In this document: in pieces, positions 1 through 20,627 of the stretch
Numbering within the stretch: the first letter of the stretch is position 1
How the letters are laid out: every line of letters begins with the position of its first letter
Notes under the pieces: generated by a model
What the model was told of the DNA's origin: nothing
Database searches by the model: none
What the model saw: only the letters and a program-made list of their open reading frames with translations
Virus record (IMG/VR): IMGVR_UViG_3300007960_000244
Span: 1 to 21,431 of that record
From: a virus
Length of the DNA: 21,431 nt
Direction: 5' to 3' (one strand)
Made by a program: the position numbers and the translations under genes

Positions 1-3000
1 AGGAGGGAAACAGAAGATGGAAGATCTGAAGTAGTTTCACATCGAGTTACAGATGCTGCTACTGTAAATACATTTAAGAATACCCCTATAGATGAGATAG
101 AACAAATACGTTCTAAGCCAAAATCGGTAAAGAGTAGAGAAGCAGGAACTGCACTTCATGCTACCGGTCAAAAGCTAATGGAGTTATTTGCTTCTAAAAT
201 GGACGGAGTAAATTTAGTAGACCTACTTGATGAAGGAAATACTCCAAGAACAGTAAGTAGCAGAGCAGAGATACTTAAAGAGTCTGGACTTACAGAGCCT
301 ATGTTTCAAAAGTTTGAGGCTCATGTAAAGTCTTTACTTGATGACATAGTTAAAGTACAGAAAGAAATAAATGATAGTGAGAGTGTAGACCTTATGACAG
401 AGGTAAGGCTATTTGATCCTACTACAGATACAGCCGGTACTGTAGACATTCTATTCTTATTTTCCGATAATACTGCAGCTATATACGACTATAAGTTCAT
501 GAGTCCTAGTACAGAGTCTGCAATTGTAGAACTTGAAAAAGGTGCCCCTAAACTTGTAGCTCTTCCTTACACTGAAAAGAAGCTAGAAAACTTTGATTCT
601 CAGATAGCTTTCTACTCTAAAGTTTTAAGAGATCAGTATGGCGTTGCAGATATAAAAAGATCTAGAATAATTCCAGCTCACATAGATTTTAAGTGGGTAA
701 AAGGTACACCTAATGAGATAAGTACCTTTAATATAGGTGAAGAAGATAACGCATTCCTTAGACATCGAGCAGTTACAGAGGAACTTTCTGACTATGAAGA
801 TGTGAATAGAAAGCTGCAAGACATATATAAAAGAATTGAAAAGCTTAAAGGTAAAAGAGGAACTAAAGCTATATCTGAAAGAATGTTCTTACAGGAAACT
901 GCTCAAGAACTTCTTATGCAAGGAAACTTTGCAAACGTATTGTTGACAATAAATGATACAGTAGATACTATAAATAAGAATATAGACATTAATGATAAGA
1001 CCAACATTAACTATATCACCTTTAATGAGCTTATGCATTATAGAGATGTCTTATCTATATTCCAAGATATTGAAGATGCCACTATAAGAATGCGTAATGA
1101 TCTTCAGAGTTCTAAAAAGAATGTAGAAGAAATAGAAGATAATATCAAGTCTATGGACTCCATTGTATCAAATGCTATGGAGACATTGAATGCAAAGCTT
1201 AAAGAAAGATTTGATGTAGAGTCTAGACTTCAAACTGACTACAGTGGAACTGAAACTGGAACATTTGATAACCTTAGACGAATGGATCTCATTGATAATC
1301 CTTGGTTTAAGGAAGCTAAAAATCTTATCAATGTAGCTGATCGTAAAACATTTTTAGATACAGAGACCCTTAGACAGAAATGGGTAGCTCTTGAAAATAG
1401 TATTAATGAGTGGGGAAATGGTGACTCATCTTTAGCATATAACAGACTAATAAAGGATACAGGAAAGCAACTTTTCCTTGTACCTATGTTTAAGTCTGAG
1501 TTTAGGGAGGAGGTAGCTGAAAAGATAACAGATAAAGAAAATACTGTAAAGAATGTAGCCTGGATGAAAGAAAGATTCCAGATAAAAGAAGGCGCTAAAG
1601 AAAAATATGATGAGCTTTTAAGAGCTAAAATAAAAGACTTAAAAGTAACTGCTACAAATAAAGAATCTTATAATGCAAGTTTGAAGAGGTTTAAAAATCA
1701 GTATGATGTTTTCTCAAACGATAATGCTTGGCTATCAAGAAGCTACTTTAGATTCTTAGAACTTAAACCTGAATACGCAGAAAAAGTATGGAGTGATGAA
1801 TATGCTTTCTTAAATGAGAAAGGAAATGAACCTTTACTCAATTATTATAATGAATGGAAAGCTCAGATACGAGAGTTTAAAGATATCCTAGAGATTGAGC
1901 ATGACATCAAGTTATCTGAAAACATGATTCCATCTTTGAGAGCAGGGCTAGTAGAAAAAATTGCTATTGGAGAAGTATCTAAAGACCTTGTAACTGATTG
2001 GGTGTCAAGAGGATTTGTAATAAAAGAAGATGAGGATGATAGATCAGGGGGAACAAAAGAGAATACTGTTCCATTACCGGGAGTACGACCTTTAGTAAAC
2101 ACAAAAGGTGAGGTGGTATCTGATCTTGTGTCGAAGGATTTGACACGTTCTATGTATCTATTTGGATCTGGAGTATATAACTACATCAATAAATCCAATA
2201 TTGAATCTAGAATATTATATATGAGATCAAGACTTGCAGCAAGTCAAGAAATAGATATTTCAAAAGAAGGGCTTGCAGCAAGAAAGAAAAATGGGGCGTT
2301 CAGTAAAAAACCTGTTACGCCAGGTACTCTAAAACTCTTTGATGATTTTGTAGATATCTTTATATATGGTAGTACTTATACAGGAAAAGACTTTGAAATT
2401 TTCGGTGTAAACGGTAAGAAACTATCAGATACTTTAAACCAAGTTACAACTATAAACACCATATCTTTTCCTGTACGTCTAGCTACTGCAGCAAGACTTG
2501 CTGGAGCTGCAGGAACAGTTATAGAAGCTGCTGGAGGCAAGTATTACAGTTTTGAAAATCTTGGACAGGCCGGACAGTTATTCCTAAAAGATAAAGACAC
2601 TTACATGGCTATAGCAGATTACTTCGATCTGCATGCTGAAGAGCATACTGAGCACAAAGAAAGAAGACTAAGATCCAAATTTCTTAATAAGTGGTTAGAT
2701 ATGAGCTTCCTATTTGAACCTTTAGGATTATTTGATAGACAGATAGATAGAAATATAGGTATAGCTATGCTGTACAATAGTGGCCTTGATTCTAAAGGAG
2801 AGCTAAAAAGACTGTCACAGTTACCTGAAGGAACTCCAAATATTATAGACTCTCTTAAAGGTAAAATAGTAAAAGATGCAGAAGGAAGAATGTCTATAGC
2901 TCCAGGAGCACTACCTATTCAAACTGAAGTTGATGTTCAACAAAGAGCTAAAAGACTTACAGCTAGAGTAAAAGGAGCTCAAGGAAGTGATGATATGGTT

Positions 3001-3852
3001 GTAGCAAGAACTACTATTCTTGGCTCTCTTGTAGGAAAATTCAAATGGTTTGCACCTGCAATATTAGATGCGCACTTCAGTAATACAAGATTTGACATTT
3101 ACTTAGATTCTTCTACAGAAGGAAGGATCAGAGGGTTCTTAAAATCTATTAAAGTACCTAAAGATGAGATAGACGAAAGAGTAGGATTCATGAAGATGGG
3201 TTTGAACTTTGTTCAAGGAATGAAGAACGCTCTTGCCCAACTTACAATGCTAGATGATTATGTAGTATCAAATCAAAGAAGACAGAAGCTTATAGCTAAA
3301 GGAAAGTTTGGGCCTAAAGAAAAAGCTAAGTTTGAAGAAAGAAGGCGTCTACTTAACATAGAGTTTGAGCATGAAAAAAATATGTCTGACGATAAAGCAT
3401 TTAAAAACATAGACTTTGAATCCTATGTAGAAATGCGTCAATCTTCAGTTAAACAATCTATTGCCGAATTACAAGTAGTAGGAACTCTTCTTCTTATATA
3501 CAGTCTACTATCTATGGAAGGAGATGATGACCGTAAACTTTACAGTAGAAACTTTGCAACAAGAAAGTTTATGGACATACTAAGTAGAGTATTACTAGAG
3601 ACAAGTTTCTCTATCAACCCTATGGAATTTGAGAAGTTTAACAAATCTCTTATTCCTGCAATGTCTTTAGTTACAAGGCTAGGGAGAATACTTTCAAACG
3701 GAATCAAAGAGACAGCAGAGCTTGCAGGATTACGCCCGGAAGATAGAAGAGATAAAACTCCACTGTTTCACTACACTGCTAGATCTCTTCCTGGAGGAAA
3801 TCAGTTTGCAAGAGTGTTTGAAATATCTGAAACTGACGTGTATAAGAATTAA
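1..3852 (+). CDS. Large probable virion/ejection protein with RecB-like PD-(D/E)XK nuclease domain (5' end missing)
   Basis: The frame is open from base 1, so the ATG at 178 is internal; 1283 residues are visible and the true start lies left of the window. The visible N-terminus holds a full RecB/Cas4-type nuclease signature: GTALHATGQ (His53), Glu134, GTVDILF (Asp149), IYDYK (Asp163, Lys165) and SQIAFY (Gln201, Tyr205). These match the G-x-x-x-H, G-x-x-D, D-x-K and Q-x-x-x-Y motifs of PD-(D/E)XK nucleases. A long charged, helix-rich middle follows, then Ala/Gly-rich (about 822-841) and hydrophobic (about 1156-1174) segments that could contact membrane. The gene ends at a strong terminator facing the oppositely transcribed replication operon, which suits the last gene of a virion block. 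Very large size, a helical body and a membrane-prone tail suggest a protein ejected with the DNA. The nuclease domain is seen directly; the virion role is inference. Confidence 0.7.
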   Translation, partial: RRETEDGRSEVVSHRVTDAATVNTFKNTPIDEIEQIRSKPKSVKSREAGTALHATGQKLMELFASKMDGVNLVDLLDEGNTPRTVSSRAEILKESGLTEPMFQKFEAHVKSLLDDIVKVQKEINDSESVDLMTEVRLFDPTTDTAGTVDILFLFSDNTAAIYDYKFMSPSTESAIVELEKGAPKLVALPYTEKKLENFDSQIAFYSKVLRDQYGVADIKRSRIIPAHIDFKWVKGTPNEISTFNIGEEDNAFLRHRAVTEELSDYEDVNRKLQDIYKRIEKLKGKRGTKAISERMFLQETAQELLMQGNFANVLLTINDTVDTINKNIDINDKTNINYITFNELMHYRDVLSIFQDIEDATIRMRNDLQSSKKNVEEIEDNIKSMDSIVSNAMETLNAKLKERFDVESRLQTDYSGTETGTFDNLRRMDLIDNPWFKEAKNLINVADRKTFLDTETLRQKWVALENSINEWGNGDSSLAYNRLIKDTGKQLFLVPMFKSEFREEVAEKITDKENTVKNVAWMKERFQIKEGAKEKYDELLRAKIKDLKVTATNKESYNASLKRFKNQYDVFSNDNAWLSRSYFRFLELKPEYAEKVWSDEYAFLNEKGNEPLLNYYNEWKAQIREFKDILEIEHDIKLSENMIPSLRAGLVEKIAIGEVSKDLVTDWVSRGFVIKEDEDDRSGGTKENTVPLPGVRPLVNTKGEVVSDLVSKDLTRSMYLFGSGVYNYINKSNIESRILYMRSRLAASQEIDISKEGLAARKKNGAFSKKPVTPGTLKLFDDFVDIFIYGSTYTGKDFEIFGVNGKKLSDTLNQVTTINTISFPVRLATAARLAGAAGTVIEAAGGKYYSFENLGQAGQLFLKDKDTYMAIADYFDLHAEEHTEHKERRLRSKFLNKWLDMSFLFEPLGLFDRQIDRNIGIAMLYNSGLDSKGELKRLSQLPEGTPNIIDSLKGKIVKDAEGRMSIAPGALPIQTEVDVQQRAKRLTARVKGAQGSDDMVVARTTILGSLVGKFKWFAPAILDAHFSNTRFDIYLDSSTEGRIRGFLKSIKVPKDEIDERVGFMKMGLNFVQGMKNALAQLTMLDDYVVSNQRRQKLIAKGKFGPKEKAKFEERRRLLNIEFEHEKNMSDDKAFKNIDFESYVEMRQSSVKQSIAELQVVGTLLLIYSLLSMEGDDDRKLYSRNFATRKFMDILSRVLLETSFSINPMEFEKFNKSLIPAMSLVTRLGRILSNGIKETAELAGLRPEDRRDKTPLFHYTARSLPGGNQFARVFEISETDVYKN

Positions 3853-3880
3853 AAGTAGGGGGATTGCTCCCCCTAACTTT
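3851..3880. terminator. Bidirectional intrinsic terminator between convergent transcription units
   Basis: A perfect 7-bp G/C stem (AGGGGGA, TTGC loop, TCCCCCT, 3857-3874) is extended by an AAAGT/ACTTT arm with one bulged A. This gives an A-rich left flank and T-rich right flank, so the hairpin can end transcripts from both directions. It lies between the + strand gene ending at 3852 and the - strand gene whose stop codon is at 3879-3881. Confidence 0.85.
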
Positions 3881-4277
3881 ACCACCAGGAAGTATAGTAT
3901 ACCTTCCTTTTATTCTCTATAGCTTCTAAAGCACGGTCTATAGCTTCAAGAGTTTCCTTTCTATAGTACTCATTAGCACCTTGAGGATCACCGTGAAAGA
4001 ACCCACCACCGATAGGTAATGCATTCTTATCTGTAACATCTTTAAGTTCTAACAGATCTTCTCTTGTAAGCTGCAGTTTATTACAGTTAAAAGATTTACC
4101 CTCTATACCGTACGTTCCAGTACCTCCTTTCTCAAAGTACAGGTCAGACATCCATCTTTCTAAGTTTGGATGTTTTCTCCAGTAGTGTATATCCTCATTG
4201 GTTTTCTGATCATGAGAAAAATCTACTTCTTTTCTATTCTTTCCTTTGTAAGAAAACATATATGCATCTAATCCCAT
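3879..4277 (-). CDS. Conserved phage protein of the MGLDxY type, function unknown
   Basis: A 132-aa soluble protein that opens with MGLDAYMF and ends with VYYTSWW. This combination recalls a family of small uncharacterised phage and bacterial proteins that start MGLDMY and end in an aromatic-rich tail; the match is from memory of the family, not a search. The centre contains GGTGTYGIEGKSFNC and GGGFFHGDP, glycine/aromatic-rich turns that suggest a compact fold, followed by a helical, charged stretch (ETLEAIDRALEAIENKRK). The start codon lies two bases after the stop of the 43-aa membrane ORF, so it is probably translated by coupling. It is the last gene of the leftward operon, and its stop sits in the terminator arm. 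Confidence 0.75.
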   Translation of the reverse strand: MGLDAYMFSYKGKNRKEVDFSHDQKTNEDIHYWRKHPNLERWMSDLYFEKGGTGTYGIEGKSFNCNKLQLTREDLLELKDVTDKNALPIGGGFFHGDPQGANEYYRKETLEAIDRALEAIENKRKVYYTSWW

Positions 4278-4279
4278 AA

Positions 4280-4411
4280 TTACATAAATTTTATCATTGT
4301 TACTATTAACATTACACTTACAATATTCATCATAAAGAATACTGGAAACCCATACTTCTTTAATTTAAGAGTATTACGAAGCGTAAGTCTGCGTTTTTGA
4401 AATTTTTTCAT
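4280..4411 (-). CDS. 43-aa one-pass membrane peptide
   Basis: A short frame translating to a basic N-terminus (MKKFQKRRLTLRNTLKLKK) followed by one hydrophobic helix from about residue 20 (YGFPVFFMMNIVSVMLIVTMI). The positive-inside rule predicts a cytoplasmic N-terminus. The start ATG shares its A with the TAA stop of the upstream radical-SAM gene (TAATG), and the stop is two bases from the next ATG. Both junctions are tight, which supports a translated gene rather than a chance frame. No function can be assigned. Small membrane peptides in phage early regions are often involved in lysis control or exclusion, but nothing here proves that. Confidence 0.6.
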   Translation of the reverse strand: MKKFQKRRLTLRNTLKLKKYGFPVFFMMNIVSVMLIVTMIKFM

Positions 4412-5265
4412 TAGAATATATATCTAATTGTGTTCCAAGGAATAGTAGATTCATGCAATTCCTTGAACCGGTTAATATACTTTGACTTAAGTCCTAACTT
4501 ATAACGTAGGTTTTTACCTCCATACTGAGATGTTTTAACCTCTTGTATACCTGACACCCATAGATGTTTCTCTACGGCAGGTTTATTCTTAAGATTGTCT
4601 AGGTGTCTACCCTCATTATGTGTAAGGAATATAACCTCCGCTAATACTTGATCCTTGTAATCTACATAGTCATCAAGCATTTGAAATAATTCTTTGTAGT
4701 CTTTGTGCCAGCCTTTGTAAAGTATCACAGGACTGAAGTTTACATGAACATCATAACCACTATCTATAAAAGCATCAATGGCTTTTATTCTATCTATTAT
4801 TTTACTGGTGTTAGGTTCGTGTATGTCAGACATGCATTGGGGCATCAGACTGAATCTGATACGTACTTTGCCGCCTGGATCAAAGTCTACAAGATTTGGA
4901 TTCACATACTTAGTAGCAAATGAACCCATAGCAATTGGATGTTCTTTGAAAAACTGAAATATCTTCTTCCACTCATGATGTTTAGCATGCAATGCAAAGT
5001 CTTCGTTACACGAGATATCATAAGTAACATAATCTGGATGGGTCTGGTTAGGCTTTTGAACATCTGCAAAGTATGCATGACTGTTCATAGCTGTAAGAAT
5101 ATCTTCTGTGTTTGTAGCTATTGTAAGACCCGTAGGTTTACTACGTTTCATGTAGCAATAACTGCAATCATAAAGACACCCATGACCAAAGGAAGGGGAG
5201 ATATAATCAGTAGAACGTCCTGATGGTCTGATGACCATACTTTTACGTTTTACTTTATCAATCAT
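4411..5265 (-). CDS. Radical SAM protein resembling spore photoproduct lyase
   Basis: A 284-aa protein with a radical SAM cluster motif C-x3-C-x2-C (Cys30, Cys34, Cys37 in GCLYDCSYCYM), which binds the [4Fe-4S] cluster that cleaves S-adenosylmethionine. Downstream, ISCNEDF (Cys86), FATKYV (113-121) and KVRIRFSL (133-140) appear in the order in which the spore photoproduct lyase family carries its S-C-x-x-D, T-K and R-x-R-F-S segments. In that family the cysteine after the cluster motif is the hydrogen donor that closes repair of the thymine dimer 5-thyminyl-5,6-dihydrothymine. The protein is somewhat shorter than cellular lyases (about 340 aa). It overlaps the preceding ORF by 8 nt and is coupled to the next. 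A role in repairing UV damage in phage DNA is plausible; another radical SAM reaction on DNA or RNA is possible. Family assignment is fairly firm, substrate is inferred. Confidence 0.75.
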   Translation of the reverse strand: MIDKVKRKSMVIRPSGRSTDYISPSFGHGCLYDCSYCYMKRSKPTGLTIATNTEDILTAMNSHAYFADVQKPNQTHPDYVTYDISCNEDFALHAKHHEWKKIFQFFKEHPIAMGSFATKYVNPNLVDFDPGGKVRIRFSLMPQCMSDIHEPNTSKIIDRIKAIDAFIDSGYDVHVNFSPVILYKGWHKDYKELFQMLDDYVDYKDQVLAEVIFLTHNEGRHLDNLKNKPAVEKHLWVSGIQEVKTSQYGGKNLRYKLGLKSKYINRFKELHESTIPWNTIRYIF

Positions 5266-5473
5266 CTTCTTTGTTTTTGTTTAGGTTTTTCCAAAAGTCA
5301 TTATGTGCATCAAGTCCACTCTGTATAAATCTACTCCTAACAATAGAAGGAGATTTATTCCATTTGTGAATCAATTCACCTAAAAGTAAATCTTGTTCTT
5401 CCTGAGTAAGTTCACTTTCTTTTCTTGTAAAAACTTTCCCATCTTTTACAAACTCATATGTAGTTTCACTCAT
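5258..5473 (-). CDS. Small hypothetical protein (71 aa)
   Basis: An acidic/charged soluble 71-residue protein with no recognised domain (MSETTYEFVKDGKVFTRKES at the start, ending NKNKEDD). It overlaps the upstream ORF by 8 nt and the downstream radical-SAM gene by 8 nt. Both junctions are built from the same sequence, CAAAGAAGATGA read on the - strand, which holds an end-of-gene KED(D/E) and the next gene's ATG. It is probably a real coupled gene because the overlaps are conserved in form. Function unknown. Confidence 0.6.
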   Translation of the reverse strand: MSETTYEFVKDGKVFTRKESELTQEEQDLLLGELIHKWNKSPSIVRSRFIQSGLDAHNDFWKNLNKNKEDD

Positions 5474-5757: not shown

Positions 5758-5912
5758 TACGATTCGCCTAACCAAATAATTTCTTCGTTCAATTCAATCC
5801 AATCTTCACCTGTAAGCACCCAATATAAAATAGGTATTACAATGGTTAGGCTAAGGCAAATAAATAGTATCATTAATGGCATTACTAAAAATAATCTTTT
5901 CAATGGTTTCAT
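5757..5912 (-). CDS. 51-aa one-pass membrane protein
   Basis: A short frame translating to MKPLKRLFLVMPLMILFICL, then SLTIVIPILYWVLTGEDWIE, ending LNEEIIWLGES. It has a basic start, one hydrophobic helix from about residue 7 to 31, and an acidic tail, predicting N-in/C-out topology. The YWxxTG(E/R)DW-type segment after the helix recalls tiny membrane proteins often annotated as hypothetical in Bacteroidota phages and prophages, from memory only. It is flanked on both sides by spacer repeats and does not overlap its neighbours, unlike genes outside this region. Function unknown. Confidence 0.6.
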   Translation of the reverse strand: MKPLKRLFLVMPLMILFICLSLTIVIPILYWVLTGEDWIELNEEIIWLGES

Positions 5913-5929
5913 AAGTCGTAATTTTAAAA

Positions 5930-6058
5930 GCGTACAACATTGTATATAGTTAATACGCTATGATGGTAAGTACTTTAATTTAAACGTTTGTGCAAAGCGT
6001 ACTAACCTTATACTTTGCCGTTGTAAAACATTAAAACGATTTCATAGTAAGCCGTTAG
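5930..6058. repeat. Spacer repeat, copies 2a and 2b (double spacer)
   Basis: The longest spacer (154 nt) holds two units. One is GCGTACAACATTGTATATAG with a closing TACGC (5930-5958), whose TACAACATTGTATATA resembles 7169-7184. The other is GTACTAACC (6000-6008) with CCGTTGTAAAACATTAAAAC (from 6018) and GCCGTTAGC (6051-6059). Two adjacent units with no gene between look like a lost or empty cassette. Confidence 0.55.
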
Positions 6059-8222: not shown

Positions 8223-8969
8223 TTACAGGTCGTACACATCAGGATCATATATTTCTTGATCCATATTAGGAATACTGTATAACTCAGCATCTTCAGGGAG
8301 ATTTATATCCAATAGTTCTTCAAGCTCTTGTCTTCGTGATTCATCCTTAAAAAGGATATGGCTTATAGAACTGTCAAAATCCACCCCATGAAAATCAAGG
8401 ATCTTAAGTTTGTAATCTTCAGTCATCTCAGAGTATCTACCCTCTAAAAACTTATTAAAATCCCCCTGATAATACTTAGGTACCTCAAACAGATAAAGAA
8501 CTGTACTCTTTGTAGGATCTTCAGTCTTCATGTAGCACTTAAGCCTTTGCATAGATTGCTCTAGATTAGTGAACATTTTAAGTCCGGAGAATCTGAAGAG
8601 AACTGCAATGACATTACTTACATCCTTAGTACCTACAAAACAGTTAAGAAGAAACTTATCATAGTAATAAGTATTCCTATTGCCTGGAAGCATAGGTAGT
8701 ACAAACAGAGAGGCTTTAGTTCTGGATGCGATTATAAGATCATACACAGGCAGACCCATGATATCCCTACTTTCTATCCTGTTTATCCTATAAGGTAATT
8801 TACTAGAAGATATAGTGATCTTATCGCCTACTTTTATCCTACTCAATCCTGGGATATCAATAGATACTATCTTTCCATCTTCAGCTTTTTCTGCCTCTAC
8901 CTCTAGAGTGTTTGTAACAGACACACTTAACGGATCCTTTATGGATACTACTGTATTTCTTGCTCCCAT
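8223..8969 (-). CDS. Hypothetical replication-region protein (248 aa)
   Basis: A 248-residue protein with a beta-rich first third (NTVVSIKDPLSVSVTNTLEV, KIVSIDIPGLSRIKVGDKIT) that looks like a small barrel. A mixed alpha/beta middle follows (TYYYDKFLLNCFVGTKDVSN, VLFRFSGLKMFTNLEQSMQR), then an acidic tail (DINLPEDAELYSIPNMDQEI). I recognise no family and no catalytic motif. Its first 22 bases overlap the end of the FEN exonuclease gene in another frame, and a strong terminator follows it. The position suggests a DNA-metabolism accessory protein. The acidic tail is reminiscent of SSB or clamp-interacting proteins, but this is speculative. Confidence 0.65.
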   Translation of the reverse strand: MGARNTVVSIKDPLSVSVTNTLEVEAEKAEDGKIVSIDIPGLSRIKVGDKITISSSKLPYRINRIESRDIMGLPVYDLIIASRTKASLFVLPMLPGNRNTYYYDKFLLNCFVGTKDVSNVIAVLFRFSGLKMFTNLEQSMQRLKCYMKTEDPTKSTVLYLFEVPKYYQGDFNKFLEGRYSEMTEDYKLKILDFHGVDFDSSISHILFKDESRRQELEELLDINLPEDAELYSIPNMDQEIYDPDVYDL

Positions 8970-9793
8970 AGATCTAACGCATTTTGAATTTCCAACTCAG
9001 GAAGATCTATATTGTACTTAGACAGCTCAGAAGGATCTTTGAGCATATACACAAGATCTAAAGTCTCTTTAAATTTATCGATTTTATCCTTAACTTCAGT
9101 TTGATAGGATCTGTCCTGAGACTTTATTTTCTGTATATAAGACTGCAAAGCCCGTAAAGGGAAGTCTTCTTTCTTTACGTTATCTAAGATCTTGGTAGCT
9201 TTAGCTGCACCTATGCCAGGTATACCGGGGATTCCATCTACACTGTCACCAGATAAGGTCTGAAGCCATAGAAAATGCCATGCATCATCTTCAGATGTAT
9301 CTATCCACTCCTGTTTACTGTAGTTGTAATGCTTACCAGGTATCTGCCGTATAACATCTTTGTCAGGACTGCAGATTATAAACTCCAAACCAAGTTCTTT
9401 CTCTTTCTGTTTGTATAATCCCATGCAATCATCTGCCTCTAGGCTATCTACCGTGCAGAAATTCCACTCTTGTTTAGCATAAGCTTTCAATCCTTGCAGT
9501 TCAGGAGGTGCGGTCTTACCTTTTCTATTGCCCTTATAAGGTTTGGTAATACCTATCTCTCTTCTAAACGTGTCATAAGGAGTGAGAAAAGCTACATACT
9601 GATGAGTTTCACACTTATCAAGAATGTCTATCATGAATGAATCCAGCTTGATCTTACATTCTTCAAACGTACTTTCAACCATGCAGTAATAGAGGAGACT
9701 ATCGGCATCTATAAGACACACTCTATTTTCACTCTTATACTGTGGAGATTCAGGTTCCCATACATCGCTTACATGTTTTAATATTTCTAACAT
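8948..9793 (-). CDS. FEN-family 5'-3' exonuclease
   Basis: A 281-aa protein with the acidic residues of T4 RNase H/T5 D15-type 5' nucleases in order: LIDADSL (Asp29, Asp31), SLEADD (Glu119, Asp121, Asp122), CSPDKD (Asp144, Asp146) and SGDSVDGIPG (Asp183, Asp186). The helix-hairpin-helix-like DNA-binding element GIPGIPGIGAAKA follows at 187-199. Such enzymes bind two metal ions and remove RNA primers and 5' flaps during replication or degrade DNA 5' to 3'. Length matches stand-alone phage enzymes (about 280-300 aa). Since the phage polymerase is family A, this protein probably supplies the flap-trimming activity that cellular Pol I carries as an N-terminal domain. It begins just downstream of the rIIB terminator. 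Confidence 0.92.
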   Translation of the reverse strand: MLEILKHVSDVWEPESPQYKSENRVCLIDADSLLYYCMVESTFEECKIKLDSFMIDILDKCETHQYVAFLTPYDTFRREIGITKPYKGNRKGKTAPPELQGLKAYAKQEWNFCTVDSLEADDCMGLYKQKEKELGLEFIICSPDKDVIRQIPGKHYNYSKQEWIDTSEDDAWHFLWLQTLSGDSVDGIPGIPGIGAAKATKILDNVKKEDFPLRALQSYIQKIKSQDRSYQTEVKDKIDKFKETLDLVYMLKDPSELSKYNIDLPELEIQNALDLWEQEIQ

Positions 9794-9812
9794 TATTCTT
9801 CGTTCACACTAT

Positions 9813-9852
9813 TAATAAAAAAGGACCGAGCACAATTAAGTACCCGGTCCCT
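9813..9852 (-). terminator. Intrinsic terminator after the rIIB-like gene
   Basis: On the - strand GGACCG (from 9850-9845) pairs perfectly with CGGTCC (9828-9823) across a 16-nt loop, followed at once by TTTTTTATTAAT. It is a classical rho-independent terminator, 18 bases after the stop of the rIIB-like gene. Confidence 0.88.
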
Positions 9853-9869
9853 GCTGATCTCCAAACAAC

Positions 9870-11051
9870 TTAAACTAAAGACTGTAGTCTTTTTAAGTCT
9901 GCTGTTTGCTTTTCCACTGCCTCAATATGAACTGAAACAGCTTCTTCTAACATGGCTTTCCATTGCTCATCAGTTGCTTTAGCATAAGTAGAACTGTGGT
10001 ATATAGAACCATTAACACCTGCTAACGAACTATGTACAAAGTACTCCTTGCATCGGATGGCACCGTCCACATCATCTGGAACTGCACCTACATGCATAGG
10101 ATCGATGAAGACATTGTGTATCTCACCGCTATACCATGCTATGTATTTTAATCCGCCTACATGAAGACCTGGAACACATGATCTATTGTCGTCAATGTCT
10201 ACCATATCCCAACTGTCTAGTGCATGCTTGCAACCTACTTTAATGAAATGCCCATTAGAATCATATCCATTAGGTCCTTCACAACTGAAAGAATCTCCTC
10301 TATTACCCATTACAGAAGGTTCAAATAGTCTATCCTCTACATGTTCCGGCTTACCATCAGAGTCAATCTCACCTGTATCAGGGTTGAAAGTTCTTGCATA
10401 ACGTAGAACTCTACGAGGTTCACCATCTTCATCTGCCTCATACTTATACTCGATCTCTCTAGAAACCTTGTAGCCATTGAGTAGACCCTCTTTAGTGATC
10501 TTCATTTGGTACATAGTAGCTCTTTCTTCAGCTGCTTCCTCTGTAAGACCATGCTCCTCCATAAACTCTTGCTTAAGTTTAGGGTGTACATACTTCATAT
10601 TTACAAAGTTGAAGAACTTCTCACCAAAAGCAGCGCCTTTACCTTCCTTATTAAGGTTAGGATTACGCAAGAATCTTACCCACATACGTACAAGAGGCAT
10701 GAAATCTATACCCTTATCCTGAGAATAGATGATTCTATCCACCAATGCTTGAGGCATAGCAATATCTGATGTCTGATCATTGTAGTGTAGAAAGAACTCT
10801 TTGGACATAGGATCTACTTTGATGTATTCACACTCTGTTTCTATAACAGACCCTATATACTCCTTAGAATTAAGGATTAGCTGTTCGCCTTCTGCGATAA
10901 TACTATTATATTCATCTATGGTTTCAGCATTTTCAGCTGCATCAGCCAAAGATTCCATAGTATCGTAAATAGCTTGAACGAAAGGCATTGAAAACGGAGT
11001 CTCACCGCATGAACCAACTATTTGGTCATCAATAACATTAATTGTTATCAT
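9870..11051 (-). CDS. rIIB: rIIB-like protein
   Basis: A 393-aa protein resembling T4 rIIB. The best evidence is the C-terminal third: SCVPGLHVGGLKYIAWYSGE, then NVFIDPMHVGAVPDDVDGAI and RCKEYFVH. This follows the family pattern C-x-x-G-L-H-V-G-x-x-x-Y, then V-(N/D)-P-x-D-V-x-x-V-P and R-C-x-x-Y. It lies right after a GHKL ATPase gene like rIIA, the same pairing as in T4. In T4 the rII proteins protect the phage from RexAB exclusion and affect lysis timing; the mechanism is unclear. The 39-bp gap before it and the terminator after it suggest separately tuned expression. The N-terminal part is acidic, helical and not assigned. Confidence 0.8.
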   Translation of the reverse strand: MITINVIDDQIVGSCGETPFSMPFVQAIYDTMESLADAAENAETIDEYNSIIAEGEQLILNSKEYIGSVIETECEYIKVDPMSKEFFLHYNDQTSDIAMPQALVDRIIYSQDKGIDFMPLVRMWVRFLRNPNLNKEGKGAAFGEKFFNFVNMKYVHPKLKQEFMEEHGLTEEAAEERATMYQMKITKEGLLNGYKVSREIEYKYEADEDGEPRRVLRYARTFNPDTGEIDSDGKPEHVEDRLFEPSVMGNRGDSFSCEGPNGYDSNGHFIKVGCKHALDSWDMVDIDDNRSCVPGLHVGGLKYIAWYSGEIHNVFIDPMHVGAVPDDVDGAIRCKEYFVHSSLAGVNGSIYHSSTYAKATDEQWKAMLEEAVSVHIEAVEKQTADLKRLQSLV

Positions 11052-11090
11052 TTGTAACAGTTTTATAAATTAAAGATACGTAAATTACTT

Positions 11091-13832
11091 TTATTGTAAT
11101 AATGCTAAGGCATGTTTTATAAGAGCCTCTTTATCCCACTCCCACTGATCCCTGTCATAGAGTTTAATATACTTCTTGATCTCATCTGCAGTATCATTAT
11201 GCATAAGAGAATGACAAGGCATATGACTAAGTACAGGATCAAGTACTGAAGCATAAGACTTAAGTTCTTCAAACAGACTTAGCATATCAAGGTCAGCTAC
11301 ATTAGCTCCAACGATATCGGTAAAGACAAAAGTTTCAAAGCTCTTCTGAGCTATCTTCTTATCTCTATCCTCATCTTCAGAGTCCAGGCTTGCACAATAC
11401 AGTTGGAACTTATACAGCTCGTCCAGTCTATCCCAAATAGGATTCTTATTATTTTGACTGATTGCCCAAAAGTATTGGCTATACTTATCAAGATAGTCCC
11501 TAAGAGTCTTTGCTTTACTTGATATCTTACTGTCAATACGGTTAAAAGACCTAAGATAATTGTCAAAGAAAGGCCAAACATCCCCTATCCTACGAATAGT
11601 ATAAGCTGTCCGTACAGATGGATGTGTCTCGATAGTATTATGACTTGTTCTAAAGAAGAAGAAATTATCTATATGAGACAAAGCATTTGCTTTTTCTATC
11701 CTCTTTATAGCAGAGCTACTAAGTCTGATCAATTGAGGATAGTTGTCATCTTCTACATACGGCTTCTCCCTATCTCTGCACCAAGAATTATAATGCACAG
11801 AAGGACTAAGAGTAAACAAAGCTCTAGGAACTTCACCCCAAAAAGCATAGTTATTAAGAGGGGGTGCAGAAGGATAGAGTATACCTGCTGCCATGACAAG
11901 CGTCTCTTCATCCTCTTTACCACCATAATACACTTCCTTTTCTGTAGTTATAAGATCCTTACCTCTTGGCTCTACCTTATCCCACGTCCATGTCTTACGA
12001 GAAACACTTCTATGAGCATCAGGATCATACCTTAGAGTAAAACCTACCTCTTTGTTCTCAAGAGCACGTTGCTCTGCAGGAGTAAGTGCGTCCTCTTTAA
12101 GCTCAATATCCTTAGCCTTCTCAAAGAAATCTGCAGGTACTTCTACTTCATCGTAAGAGTTTACTTTAGAATCACTTTCAATAAGTTTTTCCAAAGCATA
12201 GTACTTACTTTTCTGCACCTCAATAAGATCAGATAAACTCTCTTCAAGCTCTTTTATAGAATCGTCTTTAGACTCTTTGTCCACCCATCCTTTAAAAATG
12301 ATAGATATAAAACTACCTTTATCTAAACCTTTACAGATGTAAAGATCTTTAACCTGATTGTAGTTATTATCCTTAATATAGATGGACTCAAAGTTGAAAG
12401 ATTGCCACGAGGTTACATCCTCTCTCTTTATCTTACCCCTGTAGTCTACAGTAACTTTTTCAACTTTGATCCTATTACCAAAGAAGTTACTTACAGGTAA
12501 GAACTTAAGATCAGAATTACCAGGGAACTCTGGAGACAGATCATCATTATTAATGATGTTAGACATCCTATTGATGATATCATCAGAGTTGTTTCTATGG
12601 AAGATCTTAGTACACTGCTCAAGCCAGTCAAAGATCTCAGTTGAGTTCTGTAGCTTTTCTTCTACGATCTGAGATGCCTCTTCTGTAGCCTTATTTATAA
12701 CGGATAGGATATATGCCTTTGTAGCATCATTCCAGATGACTTTCTCACGAGATGGAGTAACACTTACACCCTCTTGTATGACTATCTCTTTACCTGTCTC
12801 ATCACGATAAGTCTGACGCATAGGACACTTAAAACCTATAGATCCATACATATCCTGCAACTCCAACTCACGGAAATCTACATAGCCATAGTTGATACCT
12901 GACTCATCAGATGGATCTTTCACAATAACGATGTGAGGCCTGTTGAACACAGTACCATTACTGATGATCAAAGATTCAGAGTTGTATACTACTTCAGCTT
13001 TAGTAGAATTACTTCTGTAAGTGAACTCTCTTCCGTCCTCTTCTATCTCTTTAACAGTAAAATTTACACCGTCAATATAGATCAACTGCTGGTCTACAGC
13101 ATCACGAAAAGAATACCGGTTATGTTTCTTAACCCCGAAACTTACCTTGGTATTGTTCTTCTCATCTGTCTTCTCATAGTATACTTTAGTACCATCACTG
13201 AATGTTATAAAGTCATTCATAGTACCATCTTTAGCAAACTTAGAGATGACAAACTCAGTACGATAAGGATAGCAGGCACACTTGAATCTTCTACCATTAT
13301 GTACAGTTTCCACTGTATACATAGCAACACCTGTAGAGAATGCAACCTTTGCACCCAAACCGAAAGCACCAAAGCCCTCTGAGGTATTACGCTTAGTAGA
13401 ATAGCCCAGACTAAGTACACCTTCGAGTCTTTTATCTCCAAGACCTACACCGAAATCCTGAACAATGAATGTGTCACAGAATCCTGTACCTTCTTCCTGT
13501 ATGTATGTGAGTTCAACTGTGTTGTTCTCAGTATCAAGGTGCTTCAGATCATAGTATGTAGGATCAAAATTGCTATCCTCATACTGATCTCCATGCCTCT
13601 CGATATAATAGTCCTCAACCTTGGCTTTGCCTGTGAGGATCTCAATAGCTACTTCTTTCTCCCGTTGCGAATCCCACGCATTTGTGGTCAACTCACGAAC
13701 AGTAGACTGAATAGGAGTAGAATATTGAGTCTGCTGTAAGATGTCATACACAAGCTTTTCAGCTCCTGCATCAATCTTCTTTTCGACACCTTTAGTTCCA
13801 GTGTCTTGCCGATCAATAGTTTTTATACTCAT
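11091..13832 (-). CDS. rIIA: rIIA-like GHKL ATPase
   Basis: A 913-aa protein with a Bergerat (GHKL) ATP-binding fold at its N-terminus. STVRELTTNAWDS carries the N-box Glu47, Asn51 and Asp54; IVQDFGVG carries the D-x-G-x-G motif (Asp126-Gly130); and SEGFGAFGLGAK (151-162) is the glycine-rich lid. This is the domain of Hsp90, MutL, gyrase B and T4 rIIA. The rest is a large, charged body without other motifs I recognise. Adjacency to an rIIB-like gene makes rIIA the best name; a MORC- or Hsp90-like role is the alternative. T4 rIIA is about 725 aa, so this one is longer by roughly 190 residues. Its ATG follows the stop of the upstream ORF without a gap. Confidence 0.82.
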   Translation of the reverse strand: MSIKTIDRQDTGTKGVEKKIDAGAEKLVYDILQQTQYSTPIQSTVRELTTNAWDSQREKEVAIEILTGKAKVEDYYIERHGDQYEDSNFDPTYYDLKHLDTENNTVELTYIQEEGTGFCDTFIVQDFGVGLGDKRLEGVLSLGYSTKRNTSEGFGAFGLGAKVAFSTGVAMYTVETVHNGRRFKCACYPYRTEFVISKFAKDGTMNDFITFSDGTKVYYEKTDEKNNTKVSFGVKKHNRYSFRDAVDQQLIYIDGVNFTVKEIEEDGREFTYRSNSTKAEVVYNSESLIISNGTVFNRPHIVIVKDPSDESGINYGYVDFRELELQDMYGSIGFKCPMRQTYRDETGKEIVIQEGVSVTPSREKVIWNDATKAYILSVINKATEEASQIVEEKLQNSTEIFDWLEQCTKIFHRNNSDDIINRMSNIINNDDLSPEFPGNSDLKFLPVSNFFGNRIKVEKVTVDYRGKIKREDVTSWQSFNFESIYIKDNNYNQVKDLYICKGLDKGSFISIIFKGWVDKESKDDSIKELEESLSDLIEVQKSKYYALEKLIESDSKVNSYDEVEVPADFFEKAKDIELKEDALTPAEQRALENKEVGFTLRYDPDAHRSVSRKTWTWDKVEPRGKDLITTEKEVYYGGKEDEETLVMAAGILYPSAPPLNNYAFWGEVPRALFTLSPSVHYNSWCRDREKPYVEDDNYPQLIRLSSSAIKRIEKANALSHIDNFFFFRTSHNTIETHPSVRTAYTIRRIGDVWPFFDNYLRSFNRIDSKISSKAKTLRDYLDKYSQYFWAISQNNKNPIWDRLDELYKFQLYCASLDSEDEDRDKKIAQKSFETFVFTDIVGANVADLDMLSLFEELKSYASVLDPVLSHMPCHSLMHNDTADEIKKYIKLYDRDQWEWDKEALIKHALALLQ

Positions 13833-14201
13833 TTAAAACAATCTTTCTTTAACATGATTAATAATTTCATTTGTCTTATCACTGATAAAATATTTAGGGT
13901 AAGGTATCACACGTTCATAAGCACGAGATTTTATATACCTCAATCGAACAGTATGTTCTTCTTTAGGTACCTCGTACTGACCTTCTTGCACAGGTATCCA
14001 ATCCACCTCATAAGGTAAATTTTCTACTATATCTGTTTTAAATGGATGACTGCCATTAGGCTGCCAACTCCAGACCTTGCAATCGCCTTTACGTACTCTG
14101 TGAATTATACCCGGCTGTATGCCGTTGTAGTATGATAGACCTATAAGGTCCCCTCTTTCTAAAGATCTTAACCAGTTTAAGTGCTGGTCACTGTGTATCA
14201 T
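13833..14201 (-). CDS. Hypothetical protein (122 aa)
   Basis: A 122-residue, beta-rich basic protein: ERGDLIGLSYYNGIQPGIIH, then RVRKGDCKVWSWQPNG and a tyrosine/proline-rich section ending INHVKERLF. The early part resembles small KOW- or SH3-like barrels, a fold-level impression only. It overlaps the preceding endonuclease gene by ATGA and its stop touches the rIIA ATG, so it is probably made in step with both. Function unknown. Confidence 0.6.
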   Translation of the reverse strand: MIHSDQHLNWLRSLERGDLIGLSYYNGIQPGIIHRVRKGDCKVWSWQPNGSHPFKTDIVENLPYEVDWIPVQEGQYEVPKEEHTVRLRYIKSRAYERVIPYPKYFISDKTNEIINHVKERLF

Positions 14202-14641
14202 AACTTTAGTATTTCCTGTATACAGATATCTACTTGTAATTTGTTAGTAGGCATGAATAGAACTGTAGGCTTACCTGTAGAAGCTATGTATCTCTTAAAC
14301 AGTTTCCACCGCATAGGAAAAGATTCATTAGCTCTACCTTTTGTTTCTATAACCCAGTTCATATCAGGACAGGTAAAGTCAGGTGTGTATGTTATAGACC
14401 TTATAGCATTTTGCACAGGTGCAAACTTCTTATATCTGAACTCCCAAGATTGTGATATAGGTTTAAACCCTTCTACGAGAGTAAATTTATCCTCTTCGTA
14501 CTTAAATTTTATCTTGGCTTTCTTAAGCTCTTTATAAGCATGCGCCTCAAGTCTTGACTTGAACTTGATACCATCTATAACTGTAGCCTTACTCTTTATA
14601 AGACTTACACCTTTTCGTCTACCTTTTCTTTTAGTTGCCAT
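14198..14641 (-). CDS. PD-(D/E)XK endonuclease, Holliday-junction/DUF1064-like
   Basis: A 147-aa protein with a basic N-terminus (ATKRKGRRKG), GIKFKSRLEAHAYKEL with its nuclease-type Glu32, a beta strand pair, then YTPDFTCPDMNWVIETKG. The last segment is the P-D-x(n)-E-x-K catalytic signature (PDF and ETK), and ends in a helix-rich tail. Similar small phage nucleases are annotated as endonuclease I-like or DUF1064; they cleave branched DNA and resolve replication and packaging intermediates. Its position next to the primase and SSB genes fits that job. It overlaps the end of the primase gene by 37 nt; the basic N-terminus within the overlap looks genuine. The subfamily is less certain than the fold. 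Confidence 0.8.
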   Translation of the reverse strand: MATKRKGRRKGVSLIKSKATVIDGIKFKSRLEAHAYKELKKAKIKFKYEEDKFTLVEGFKPISQSWEFRYKKFAPVQNAIRSITYTPDFTCPDMNWVIETKGRANESFPMRWKLFKRYIASTGKPTVLFMPTNKLQVDICIQEILKL

Positions 14642-15621
14642 TTGATCAGAGATATTGCCTTTATTGGACCATGTATCTGCATAACATCTGAGATATCTTT
14701 AGCTCCTAACTCAGTAGGGATGCAGATATTCTCAAGACCGTATTCTTTACAGATAGATTTAGCCATGGTCTGACCGGGATTGTTGTCCTTAGTATAATCG
14801 TTGTCGTACAGCACCTTTACTTGATCAAACTTCCTCTTAAGGAAAGCAATAAGCTTCTTAGGAGGCATCATGGATTCGCTCTGCAGGGCTACCGCAGAGA
14901 TTCCAAGCTCGTAAAGACACATGACATCCTTCAATGATGATGCTAAAATACATAGATCTCCAAATACCGGTAACATAGTGATACCCTGTACATGATTCAT
15001 CTGCATATTACCGAACCATTTACCGTCCTGTTTCAATGGAGAGTATAACTTATACTTCCCAGGATGTTCACAGTATGCATATGCTACTATGTGTGCAGGA
15101 TATCTCGTCCCATTTATCCAGTAGTGTGTGATAGGCTGTACTTTAAACTCTTGTAAGGTTTCTTTACTGATACAGTAATCCTCCCAATAGAGTCTATCAT
15201 ACATATTAAAGTCACGACTCTTTACCTGTATTATACAAGGTATCTTCTTAAACGTCTTTGCACCATAGGTCTTACCTATTTTCCCCAAAGAACTGATATT
15301 ATTTTTACCTGCAAGACCAAGATTGAAATCATGATCAATGGTCAAAAGCGCATCTCTAAAAGACAGGTTATACTTGTATTGCACATACCCTATACTGTCG
15401 AATCTATGTTCCCGGTAACCGTAATCGATATACCGTAACCTATCATTCTTTGCAGTTATATGTGCACTGGGTACAGGATCCTCCCGTAACTCACTACTGA
15501 ACTTTTTACCTACTTGTTTAAATGGTGGACAGTAGAATCTGAATAGATCATAATCTGTTATCTTACTTAGAATGTTATCCACCGATAGCACTACATTACT
15601 CTCTCTTGCATCTACACCCAT
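14605..15621 (-). CDS. DNA primase with TOPRIM domain
   Basis: A 338-aa protein. Residues 30-100 (CPPFKQ, SSELREDPVPSAHI, RYIDYGYREHRFDSIGYV, FRDALLTIDHDFNL) follow the layout of phage primase N-terminal regions that read 'contents of the cell, hard and dry': F-R-x-D-x-x-P-S, I-D-(F/Y) and an acidic F-x-x-A-L segment. From about 214 there is a TOPRIM fold: MLPVFGDLCILASSLKDVMC, then ALQSESMMPPKKLI, then VLYDNDYTKDNNPGQTMAKS. The D-x-D pair is Asp273 and Asp275. The glutamate usual at the first TOPRIM strand is a Ser (ASSLKDV), a replacement I remember from related phage primases as well. It would make RNA primers for lagging strands. A leading terminator separates it from the SSB gene. Confidence 0.82.
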   Translation of the reverse strand: MGVDARESNVVLSVDNILSKITDYDLFRFYCPPFKQVGKKFSSELREDPVPSAHITAKNDRLRYIDYGYREHRFDSIGYVQYKYNLSFRDALLTIDHDFNLGLAGKNNISSLGKIGKTYGAKTFKKIPCIIQVKSRDFNMYDRLYWEDYCISKETLQEFKVQPITHYWINGTRYPAHIVAYAYCEHPGKYKLYSPLKQDGKWFGNMQMNHVQGITMLPVFGDLCILASSLKDVMCLYELGISAVALQSESMMPPKKLIAFLKRKFDQVKVLYDNDYTKDNNPGQTMAKSICKEYGLENICIPTELGAKDISDVMQIHGPIKAISLIKWQLKEKVDEKV

Positions 15622-15626
15622 ACGTA

Positions 15627-15667
15627 AAATAAAAGAGGGGAAAGATACATCTTGTATCCTTCCCCTC
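15627..15667 (-). terminator. Intrinsic terminator after the SSB-like gene
   Basis: A 14-bp stem with one mismatch (GAGGGGAAAGATAC 15635-15648, loop ATCTT, GTATCCTTCCCCTC 15654-15667) is followed on the - strand by TTTTATTTTA. It begins 20 bases after the SSB stop. The broken T-run may make it leaky. Confidence 0.88.
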
Positions 15668-15687
15668 GGTTAATAATCGGATTCTAC

Positions 15688-16506
15688 TTAGAACGGAAGC
15701 TCATCTCCATCGTCCTCTGCTACACCTGCAGGTTCAGCTAACCAATCAGAATCTTCTGATATCTCTGTGGTTTTAGCTACCGGATCTGGTGTAAGAACGC
15801 CTGTAGTATGCTCTTGCCACTCGATACTGTACTCGCCTTTAACCTGACCGTAATCCTGGTTCATAGCTTTCAAGAACAGATCATTTCTCTGTGGTACAAG
15901 TCTACCGAAGTGACGAGTATAAACTCCCTGATACTTACCATCACGTACAAATACAAGAACTCGTAGCTTGTTATTTGCAAGTACTTTGATAAGCTCCTTA
16001 AGCTCTGTCATATCACCAGCCTCGATCTTATCAAGGGTATCAAGCTGAACTTCGTCACCAGGAGCAACGTTAGCCCATACCTTTACAAACTCTGTAAGAG
16101 TATCAGCACCACGTGCAATCTTGTAACAAGTCTCAGGAGCTTTGAACCAATCCATAAGAGATGAAGTATCTACAGTACCATCTGCATTCTCTTCAGCCCA
16201 GGTCTCTTGACCCTGATTGTTAAGCCACTTGTACTTACCTGTCTTAGACTTCCATGGTCCAGGAGTGATAAGTATCTCCATAGGTACAGTTATATCCTCA
16301 TTCTTAAGCCAGAATACAACTTTCTGCACCTCTCCGTTACCGAAATCTACAGTATAGTTAGGCTCAGATTGATACATAATACCCATCTCATGCAGCTCAT
16401 CCAATGTAGGATTTACTGCAATTACGCTCATAGCGGTAATACCTGTATACAGTTTATTACCTCCTCCTGAGACTTCTTGTTCTGAACTATTAGATTTAAT
16501 TGCCAT
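15688..16506 (-). CDS. Single-stranded DNA-binding protein-like
   Basis: A 272-aa protein with an acidic, proline-linked tail ending EDDGDELPF. This is the hallmark of SSBs, whose last residues (D-D-x-x-P-F type) dock partner proteins. The body contains beta-rich, aromatic-rich segments (TVDFGNGEVQKVVFWLKNED, GVYTRHFGRLVPQRN, GEYSIEWQEH) consistent with an OB-fold. It is about 100 residues longer than E. coli SSB, as phage SSBs of this kind often are, so the exact family is uncertain. It lies between a Sak4-like ATPase and the primase, and the strong terminator right after it would raise its dose relative to downstream genes, as expected for an SSB. Start: ATG at 16506, five bases after the previous gene. 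Confidence 0.75.
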   Translation of the reverse strand: MAIKSNSSEQEVSGGGNKLYTGITAMSVIAVNPTLDELHEMGIMYQSEPNYTVDFGNGEVQKVVFWLKNEDITVPMEILITPGPWKSKTGKYKWLNNQGQETWAEENADGTVDTSSLMDWFKAPETCYKIARGADTLTEFVKVWANVAPGDEVQLDTLDKIEAGDMTELKELIKVLANNKLRVLVFVRDGKYQGVYTRHFGRLVPQRNDLFLKAMNQDYGQVKGEYSIEWQEHTTGVLTPDPVAKTTEISEDSDWLAEPAGVAEDDGDELPF

Positions 16507-16511
16507 TGTTA

Positions 16512-16961
16512 TTAAATATTTGATTGGTTATTGTTCTCACTATTAATTATTTCTACATATCCATTACTCTGAGTGGATGGATCAAACTGATGTTCTCCTT
16601 CTGTTCCAGGAATACCGTACTTAGGCTCTTCTTCTTCTGTTACTTGAGGGGTTGAAACAGTTTGTACAGGGGTAGCAGTTGTACCTTTAAATGAAAATGG
16701 TAACACCTTTCTTCTTGCAGGCTTCTTACCTCGTAAAGCAGGATCTTTGAACATCTCATCTACCATCCACTTCTCAAATGGTCTAACATTTCCGTTCTCA
16801 TCACGATAAGCGAACTTCTTTTGCATCTGAGTCTTATTCACACCATTTGCAAGCTCGTTAAGAATCATGTCTACTGTTACCTCTGTTACTACTGTGCAGT
16901 TAGATAGGTCTGTTCTCTCAGTTGTTTCAGGGTTCTGAGAATCCCTCATTTCAATACTCAT
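16512..16961 (-). CDS. Hypothetical protein between Sak4-like ATPase and SSB (149 aa)
   Basis: A 149-residue protein with a short ordered core (TVDMILNELANGVNKTQMQK, RPFEKWMVDEMFKDPALRGK) that looks like a small helical DNA-binding fold. A basic stretch (KKPARRKVLPFSFKG) follows, then a long disordered, proline- and asparagine-rich acidic tail. No family recognised. Genes of this size and shape frequently sit beside the SSB in Bacteroidota phages. A regulatory or recombination-helper role is possible but unsupported. Confidence 0.6.
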   Translation of the reverse strand: MSIEMRDSQNPETTERTDLSNCTVVTEVTVDMILNELANGVNKTQMQKKFAYRDENGNVRPFEKWMVDEMFKDPALRGKKPARRKVLPFSFKGTTATPVQTVSTPQVTEEEEPKYGIPGTEGEHQFDPSTQSNGYVEIINSENNNQSNI

Positions 16962-16989
16962 AGTTTATAAAAAATTAAATGGTTACGTA

Positions 16990-17745
16990 TTAATCAATAA
17001 AAATCTTATCCCACTCAAACGGGATAGTGCTGTTTTTTAGATGTGTACAGCGTGAGTTTGCCTCTATACCATCCTTAGAAGAGAAAGAAATCATAAGTTC
17101 CTCACCTTCCCAATACACATATCCAATAGCATCGGCTTTCTGTGCAGTTATGGTCTTCAGCTTACCTGTAAGATCAAGATCTTTGACAGCCACCTCTTTA
17201 CCTTTCTTCTCAGCCATAGCATCCTTTACGTGTGCTACGAAAATTACATGAGGAGCAAGAGTAAGGAGAATGTTCATCCACTTCTTGAAACTATTACGCA
17301 GGTACAGATATCCTGCGCCTTTGGGTAGACCTAATACACTGTCCCATTGACTTTTCGGAAGTACCTTCATCTCCCCTGTCTTCGGATCTTGAACACGATT
17401 AAAATTCTTACCCATAGGTGTCTTCATATACATGGCGGTAGCATCCCACTCACACCATGCTTCAAGTTCTGTTACAGTATCTATAGCTACGTATTTATAC
17501 TTGTGATCAGAAGCTTTGATAGCTTTTACAATATTCTGAAGGTCTGTCAAGCTGCTAGCCTGAACCTTCATAGCATCTATCTTATTCGTACCCTTCTCGA
17601 GGTCTATGATAAGACAGTCTTTCAACTTAGAAAGCATTGTTGTCTTACCTATCTTAGGTTTAGAATAGATGATAAGATTCTCTGGACTTTTTGTAGTCCC
17701 AGGTACCGGTGCAGTAGGTAATACTATTGCATTTGTGTTTGCCAT
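16990..17745 (-). CDS. Sak4/RecA-like phage ATPase
   Basis: A 251-aa P-loop ATPase. Walker A is at residues 28-35 (SKPKIGKT, with Ser in place of the first Gly), and Walker B is at KYVAIDTVTE (Asp89). A RecA-core pattern follows, including LLTLAPHVIFVAHVKDA and a C-terminal beta segment. It resembles the phage AAA_24/Sak4 group of single-strand annealing or RecA-like recombination ATPases, which cooperate with SSB. Two genes downstream lies the SSB-like gene, a common partnership. It is transcribed between the DnaB-type helicase gene (gap of two bases) and the 149-aa ORF. A general nucleotide-binding protein without recombinase activity is the alternative. Confidence 0.82.
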   Translation of the reverse strand: MANTNAIVLPTAPVPGTTKSPENLIIYSKPKIGKTTMLSKLKDCLIIDLEKGTNKIDAMKVQASSLTDLQNIVKAIKASDHKYKYVAIDTVTELEAWCEWDATAMYMKTPMGKNFNRVQDPKTGEMKVLPKSQWDSVLGLPKGAGYLYLRNSFKKWMNILLTLAPHVIFVAHVKDAMAEKKGKEVAVKDLDLTGKLKTITAQKADAIGYVYWEGEELMISFSSKDGIEANSRCTHLKNSTIPFEWDKIFID

Positions 17746-17747
17746 TA

Positions 17748-19224: not shown

Positions 19225-19278
19225 ACTATAATTTTAAATTGTTAGACTTGGCGTCGGAGAGACTATGAAGATAGCCAA

Positions 19279-20621: not shown

Positions 20622-20627
20622 AGCTAT

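Follow-up and report, generated by a model that had tools for sequence, protein, structure and literature searches.

The closest described relatives of the enzyme reported here are the sporulation spore photoproduct lyase (SPL), SplB (TIGR04070; PDB 4FHC-4FHG, 4K9R and 4RH0), and the TIGR03886 proteins, which represent the SPL family in non-spore-forming bacteria; most of the bacterial members examined are about 350 aa long and have an N-terminal domain. Four cysteines (C91, C95, C98 and C141) are conserved in B. subtilis (Bs) SPL; C141, corresponding to C140 of Geobacillus thermodenitrificans (Gt), restores a hydrogen to the thymine radical, and radical transfer and SAM regeneration involve Y99 together with Y97 (Gt Y98 and Y96) (PMC3742179). 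An alternative hydrogen donor, C74, is used by the C. acetobutylicum SPL. A bacterial SPL-family gene was found to be UV-induced in a non-spore-former, which shows that the family extends beyond spores; the 2025 paper called the presence of SPL in such an organism a surprise (PMC12029717). SPL-like radical SAM proteins also occur in phages, namely phrog_13321 and those of the human-gut phage contigs MT835514 and MT835770. A search of the open-access literature revealed no phage or marine viral SPL.

The window analysed here, a stretch of 21,431 nucleotides of viral DNA, carries an ORF which the initial annotation had read as an SPL-like radical SAM enzyme. Its coordinates could be confirmed, and the features of the gene and its surroundings were as follows.

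4411-5265, minus strand: SPL-like radical SAM gene of 284 aa, with the start ATG at 5265 and the stop at 4413-4411 (PF20903, TIGR03886, AF2/Foldseek)
5155-5178, minus strand: [4Fe-4S] cluster motif C30-x3-C34-x2-C37 including Tyr36, then Tyr38 (alignment with Gt SPL CMGHCHYCY)
5008-5010, minus strand: codon of Cys86, which aligns with Gt Cys140 and Bs Cys141 (predicted hydrogen donor)
4909-4914, minus strand: T118-K119 motif, FATKY aligned with SPL FVTKY (K119 invariant)
4849-4863, minus strand: R135-x-R137-F-S139 motif, aligned with SPL RFRFS (R135, R137 and S139 invariant)
4501-4506, minus strand: R254-Y255 near the C-terminus, predicted beta-strand pair (conservation; strands E241-245 and E251-255 in the model)
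5258-5473, minus strand: 71-aa ORF upstream of the SPL-like gene (ORF coordinates; no PHROG match)
3879-4277, minus strand: 132-aa ORF downstream of the SPL-like gene (no Pfam or PHROG match)
8948-21371, minus strand: replication/recombination and RIIA/RIIB-like block on the same strand as the SPL-like gene (PHROG, Pfam)

The motif segments on which the first reading had been based (C30-x3-C34-x2-C37, S85-C86-N-E-D89, T118-K119 and R135-I-R137-F-S139) were all present and in the order seen in SPL. The end of the 71-aa ORF overlaps the start of the SPL-like gene by 8 nt, which suggests that both belong to one transcription unit, and the 132-aa ORF is the last minus-strand gene before a convergent large plus-strand gene. 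The block at 8948-21371 consists of genes for a 5'-3' exonuclease, RIIB-like and RIIA-like proteins, a resolvase, a primase, a Sak4-like protein, a DnaB-like helicase, an SF2 helicase and a family A DNA polymerase, the last of which is cut by the window end.

The best matches of the DnaB-like helicase, the primase, the SF2 helicase and the large plus-strand gene were in crAss-like gut phages (cr1_1, cr55_1, cr108_1 and cr114_1) and in Flavobacterium, Cellulophaga and Bacteroides phages. Based on these matches of the replication genes within a 21-kb fragment, the window likely represents a Bacteroidota-type crAss-like phage with a Bacteroidota host. Bacteroidota are not known to form endospores, which agrees with the initial assumption of non-spore-forming hosts.

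Several other elements of the window were recorded. The large plus-strand gene (178-3852) encodes a 1224-aa protein that is exonuclease-like in its N-terminal part (phrog_298, E = 1e-5) and resembles a hypothetical protein of crAss-like cr108_1 in its C-terminal half. A 156-aa phage protein (7512-7982, minus strand) contains a helix-turn-helix of DnaA domain IV (Bac_DnaA_C, E = 2.8e-9), and its family was found in 30 related viral loci. At 9870-13832 on the minus strand, the RIIB-like gene (393 aa) adjoins the RIIA-like gene (913 aa, HATPase); RIIA/RIIB-like genes also occur near the SPL-like gene in other loci. A noncoding segment of approximately 113 nt (5910-6022) showed 94% identity to Tenacibaculum phage Gundel_1 (Pachyviridae), which in the same search shared no other DNA with the window. 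Its minus strand forms a long imperfect hairpin that folds better than shuffled sequences (z -2.4, 2/200), and exact copies of its 27-nt core are present in 5 viral contigs; no Rfam match was obtained for the segment, which is possibly a mobile or RNA element.

Profile searches placed the window protein in the SPL family. It matched PF20903 (SPL) at E = 9.4e-26 with 90.9 bits, above the gathering cut-off of 27, and scored below the cut-off of the general Radical_SAM Pfam model. The top NCBIfam match was TIGR03886 (SPL family protein) with 314.6 bits, under the equivalog cut-off of 437.55 bits; the alignment covered profile positions 62-346 of 346, with approximately 61 N-terminal positions missing. 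TIGR04070 (sporulation SPL) followed with 85.2 bits, matched from position 67 on. The protein lacks the N-terminal 60-90 residues or so of full-length SPL-family proteins, and at 284 aa it departs from the full-length architecture of approximately 340-370 aa with an N-terminal domain. With TIGR04070 far below its cut-off of 400 bits and this domain absent, a sporulation SPL in the strict sense could be rejected; by full-length score, the protein is nearer to TIGR03886. Bacterial TIGR03886 members from Deinococcus, Methylobacterium, Streptomyces and Roseomonas were 40-43% identical to it over residues 7-284 or thereabouts and had the C-terminus and the RxRFS, TK, NxS and RY segments in common with it. 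SplB shares the fold, the CxxxCxxC motif, the hydrogen-donor cysteine and both relay tyrosines; the window protein differs from it in being viral, in lacking the N-terminal domain and in an identity of only about 21-28%.

In a phmmer search against the PDB, Geobacillus SPL chains were the only significant matches (E = 1e-16), and the family profile extended the alignment with the Gt enzyme to the C-terminus, so that homology spans from residue 6 to the end of the protein, beyond the cluster motif. The AlphaFold2 model, for which 36 viral homologues were used (pLDDT 86.9, pTM 0.87), has the SPL fold: the six best PDB matches in Foldseek were all Gt SPL, with TM 0.83-0.84 on the query and E values of 2e-17 to 2e-16. 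SPL was thus the only strong structural match of the model, as the initial annotation had led one to expect. Membership of another radical SAM family was rejected, since the next profiles scored E of about 1e-3 or worse and the next radical SAM structure E of about 2e-3. The best match in a library of predicted viral structures was only 14% identical.

Profile alignment with Gt SPL placed the catalytic residues at C30, C34, C37, C86, Y38 and Y36 of the window protein, with Tyr36 and Tyr38 aligned to Gt Y96 and Y98 and to Bs Y97 and Y99. Exactly four cysteines (C30, C34, C37 and C86) were invariant among 148 short viral proteins, position 86 being cysteine in every one of them. Across all 153 viral-contig sequences, the three cluster cysteines and Y36, Y38, K119, R135, R137, S139 and Y255 were kept, and R254 was found in 151. 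The proposal that Cys86 is the hydrogen donor gained from these results; it is the predicted donor based on the sequence alignment and the overall fold match. A donor of the C. acetobutylicum type was rejected: in the mapping made in this analysis, C74 lies at about the position of Gt S76 and corresponds to phage Ser15, and this route appears absent from the phage proteins because Ser15 is invariant in them.

The hydrogen-donor position divides the wider family. Glutamate was found there in the Deinococcus, alphaproteobacterial and Streptomyces members and in one Bacteroidia member, and in most bacterial TIGR03886 proteins examined (segment DLGENGD, compared with DISCNED around Cys86). Cysteine was found in three other Bacteroidia genomes, in short bacterial proteins and in sporulation SPL, and tyrosine in gut-phage and several other distant relatives. 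In the tree, cysteine was spread over SPL proper, the short clade and several places outside the Glu clade, and from this distribution cysteine looks ancestral and glutamate derived. The phage clade, which has cysteine where most of the bacterial TIGR03886 members examined have glutamate, has accordingly retained the SPL-type active site and donor, and this suggests that the hydrogen-donor chemistry has been selected. Most bacterial TIGR03886-like proteins examined, both Glu-type and Cys-type, carry a cysteine near the C-terminus at the position of window Asn278 (among L087-L091, L102-L105, L183 and L184); in the Glu-type proteins this residue might be another hydrogen donor. phrog_13321 and the proteins of MT835514 and MT835770 differ from the window type by an identity of about 27%, by tyrosine at the Cys86 position and by a separate deep branch in the tree. 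This second SPL-like branch with tyrosine contains gut phages (L095 and L096) and some bacteria (L106, L107 and L188-L193 also belong to the branch).

Relatives of the window protein were encoded on at least 599 viral contigs from uncultured viruses. The 148 short viral proteins that were aligned had lengths of 279-301 aa and all lacked the N-terminal domain, while five longer viral-contig proteins (L111-L115, 350-381 aa) grouped with the bacterial type. Together with two proteins from MAG contigs with phage-like genes (L083 and L084), the short viral proteins formed one clade with support of 99/95. Its sister group consisted of two short bacterial proteins encoded among cellular genes (support 97/99). 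These proteins, from a Bacteroidia genome (L101, G387) and an Alphaproteobacteria genome (L185, G670), resemble the viral ones in length and in the cysteine at the hydrogen-donor position; they differ in their cellular gene flanks, in C-x3-C-x4-C spacing and in asparagine at the Ser15 position. The non-canonical cluster spacing (GCLGGCRDSYCY) was observed in L101 (G387) and in L185/L213 (G670). A 56-row branch with 99/99 support held the TIGR03886 side and excluded SplB and the Granulicella/Gloeothece proteins, and in this tree the viral proteins group with TIGR03886 rather than with sporulation SPL. The initial annotation is refined in that TIGR03886 is the nearest named family and the gene is a short form, lacking the N-terminal domain, within a large viral clade.

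As judged from dN/dS values of 0.07-0.20 against ten close relatives, the viral proteins are under purifying selection. The PF20903 and PDB matches, the viral relatives, the dN/dS values and the invariant catalytic columns together show that the motifs are not there by chance. A search of 50,697 deposited phage records yielded two distant relatives (about 27% identity) and no close ones; nearly all members of the family known here thus come from uncultured viruses. Of 395 Bacteroidia genomes, only about 5 carried a cellular homologue of the SPL/TIGR03886 type, long or short. Given this rarity and the single viral clade, recent capture from the host was not supported. A contaminating bacterial contig was likewise rejected on account of the phage-gene neighbours and the hundreds of viral contigs that carry the gene; the MAG contigs with close relatives also look phage-like, with terminase-like or RIIA-like genes as read from their ORFs.

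These results point to a viral SPL-superfamily clade that is compact and carries the complete known catalytic set. The reading that we consider fairly probable from the sequence and the model is that the window protein is a compact DNA repair enzyme of the SPL type, which the phage would produce in the infected cell and which would directly reverse thymine dimers in phage DNA in the dark. In its favour count the SPL matches by profile, PDB sequence and fold, the four invariant cysteines and both tyrosines, the purifying selection, the frequent position beside replication and recombination genes, and the UV induction of an SPL-family gene in a non-spore-former. As to catalysis, substrate and timing of action, we infer the following course. 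The [4Fe-4S] cluster would cleave SAM, and the resulting 5'-deoxyadenosyl radical would take the C6 hydrogen of 5-thyminyl-5,6-dihydrothymine (SP), or of a closely related lesion, in phage DNA. Breakage of the methylene bridge of the thymine dimer would follow, the thymine methyl radical would receive a hydrogen back from Cys86, and radical relay through the Tyr38/Tyr36 pair would allow SAM to be regenerated. By such light-independent reversal, the incoming genome could be freed of thymine dimers ahead of replication or while it proceeds. The lesion might arise when densely packed or dried virion DNA is exposed to light, or in dried host cells.

A weak point of the SP-lyase reading is that SP arises mainly in A-form, dry or protein-bound DNA (PMC3742179, PMC12029717), and the literature searched yielded no evidence of SP formation in phage virion DNA and no biochemical test of any TIGR03886-like or viral member, nor an assay of the product of the UV-induced gene. 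The absent N-terminal domain, the TIGR04070 score (85 against 400 bits) and the low identity to sporulation SPL also count against it. One alternative is an enzyme that is not an SP lyase and reverses another DNA photolesion or oxidative dimer, such as a cyclobutane dimer (CPD), a cross-linked thymine or a related adduct, by the same radical chemistry. CPD and 6-4 products are the major UV lesions of B-form DNA (PMC3742179), the likely hosts are non-sporulating, and the phage clade sits on the TIGR03886 side of the tree, the members of which may have other substrates. However, the whole SPL relay set including the hydrogen-donor cysteine is conserved in the phage proteins, and Slieman et al. 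in 2000 (cited in PMC3742179 and PMC12029717) reportedly found that B. subtilis SPL acts on SP and not on CPD. We regard this alternative as unlikely.

Gene content bears on a second alternative, in which the SPL fold is reused by an enzyme that modifies bases of phage DNA or RNA, for example in a step of thymine hypermodification. Phages use base hypermodification against host nucleases, the SPL-like gene sits among DNA-metabolism genes, and its conservation extends over hundreds of viral contigs. In a comparison of 123 distinct loci, the gene directly upstream encoded a DnaB-like helicase in 23 of 119 cases and the gene directly downstream Sak4 in 22 of 113; in other loci it adjoined RIIA-like, RIIB-like, HNH endonuclease or DNA polymerase genes. 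The neighbours had the same orientation in nearly all cases. The immediate neighbours nevertheless varied between lineages, and no modification gene was recognised among the annotated neighbouring families. A thymidylate-synthase/hydroxymethylase family gene occurred in just 2 of 22 long viral records, which may be incomplete, and a thymine hypermodification pathway was rejected on this count. Quenching of the radical by a cysteine donor also fits lesion reversal better than group addition, and base modification seems quite improbable. Photolyase genes were absent from 21 long viral records, and 22 such records contained no T4-type pyrimidine dimer glycosylase (Pyr_excise), all of them possibly incomplete; the enzyme would thus fill a vacant repair role. 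Taken with the few thymidylate-synthase genes, these absences favour, without proving it, a repair enzyme that works on its own over one in a modification pathway. A diverged radical SAM enzyme with a non-nucleic-acid substrate, for example in counter-defence or metabolism, would be in line with the missing N-terminal domain and with the wide recruitment of radical SAM folds, but it is very unlikely given that no other radical SAM family is close by profile, PDB sequence or fold and that the gene often adjoins replication/recombination genes.

For the reading as a phage SPL-type repair enzyme, we tentatively suggest, as one of several conceivable explanations, that SP, regarded as typical of dry or A-form spore DNA, also forms in densely packaged phage DNA and that this accounts for a widespread, vertically conserved lineage of compact viral SP lyases, with dark direct reversal acting on the incoming genome. 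SPL has so far been treated as a spore enzyme, and the present analysis reveals that the full SPL catalytic set is present in a large gene family of viruses. The split between cysteine, glutamate and tyrosine at the hydrogen-donor position provides a natural test of radical quenching across the SPL family, and the 284-aa protein, as a compact enzyme of the SPL type, may lend itself to structural studies. If the enzyme is active, phages of light-exposed habitats would own a light-independent enzyme for thymine-dimer reversal, and SP formation in packaged viral DNA would become a directly testable question.
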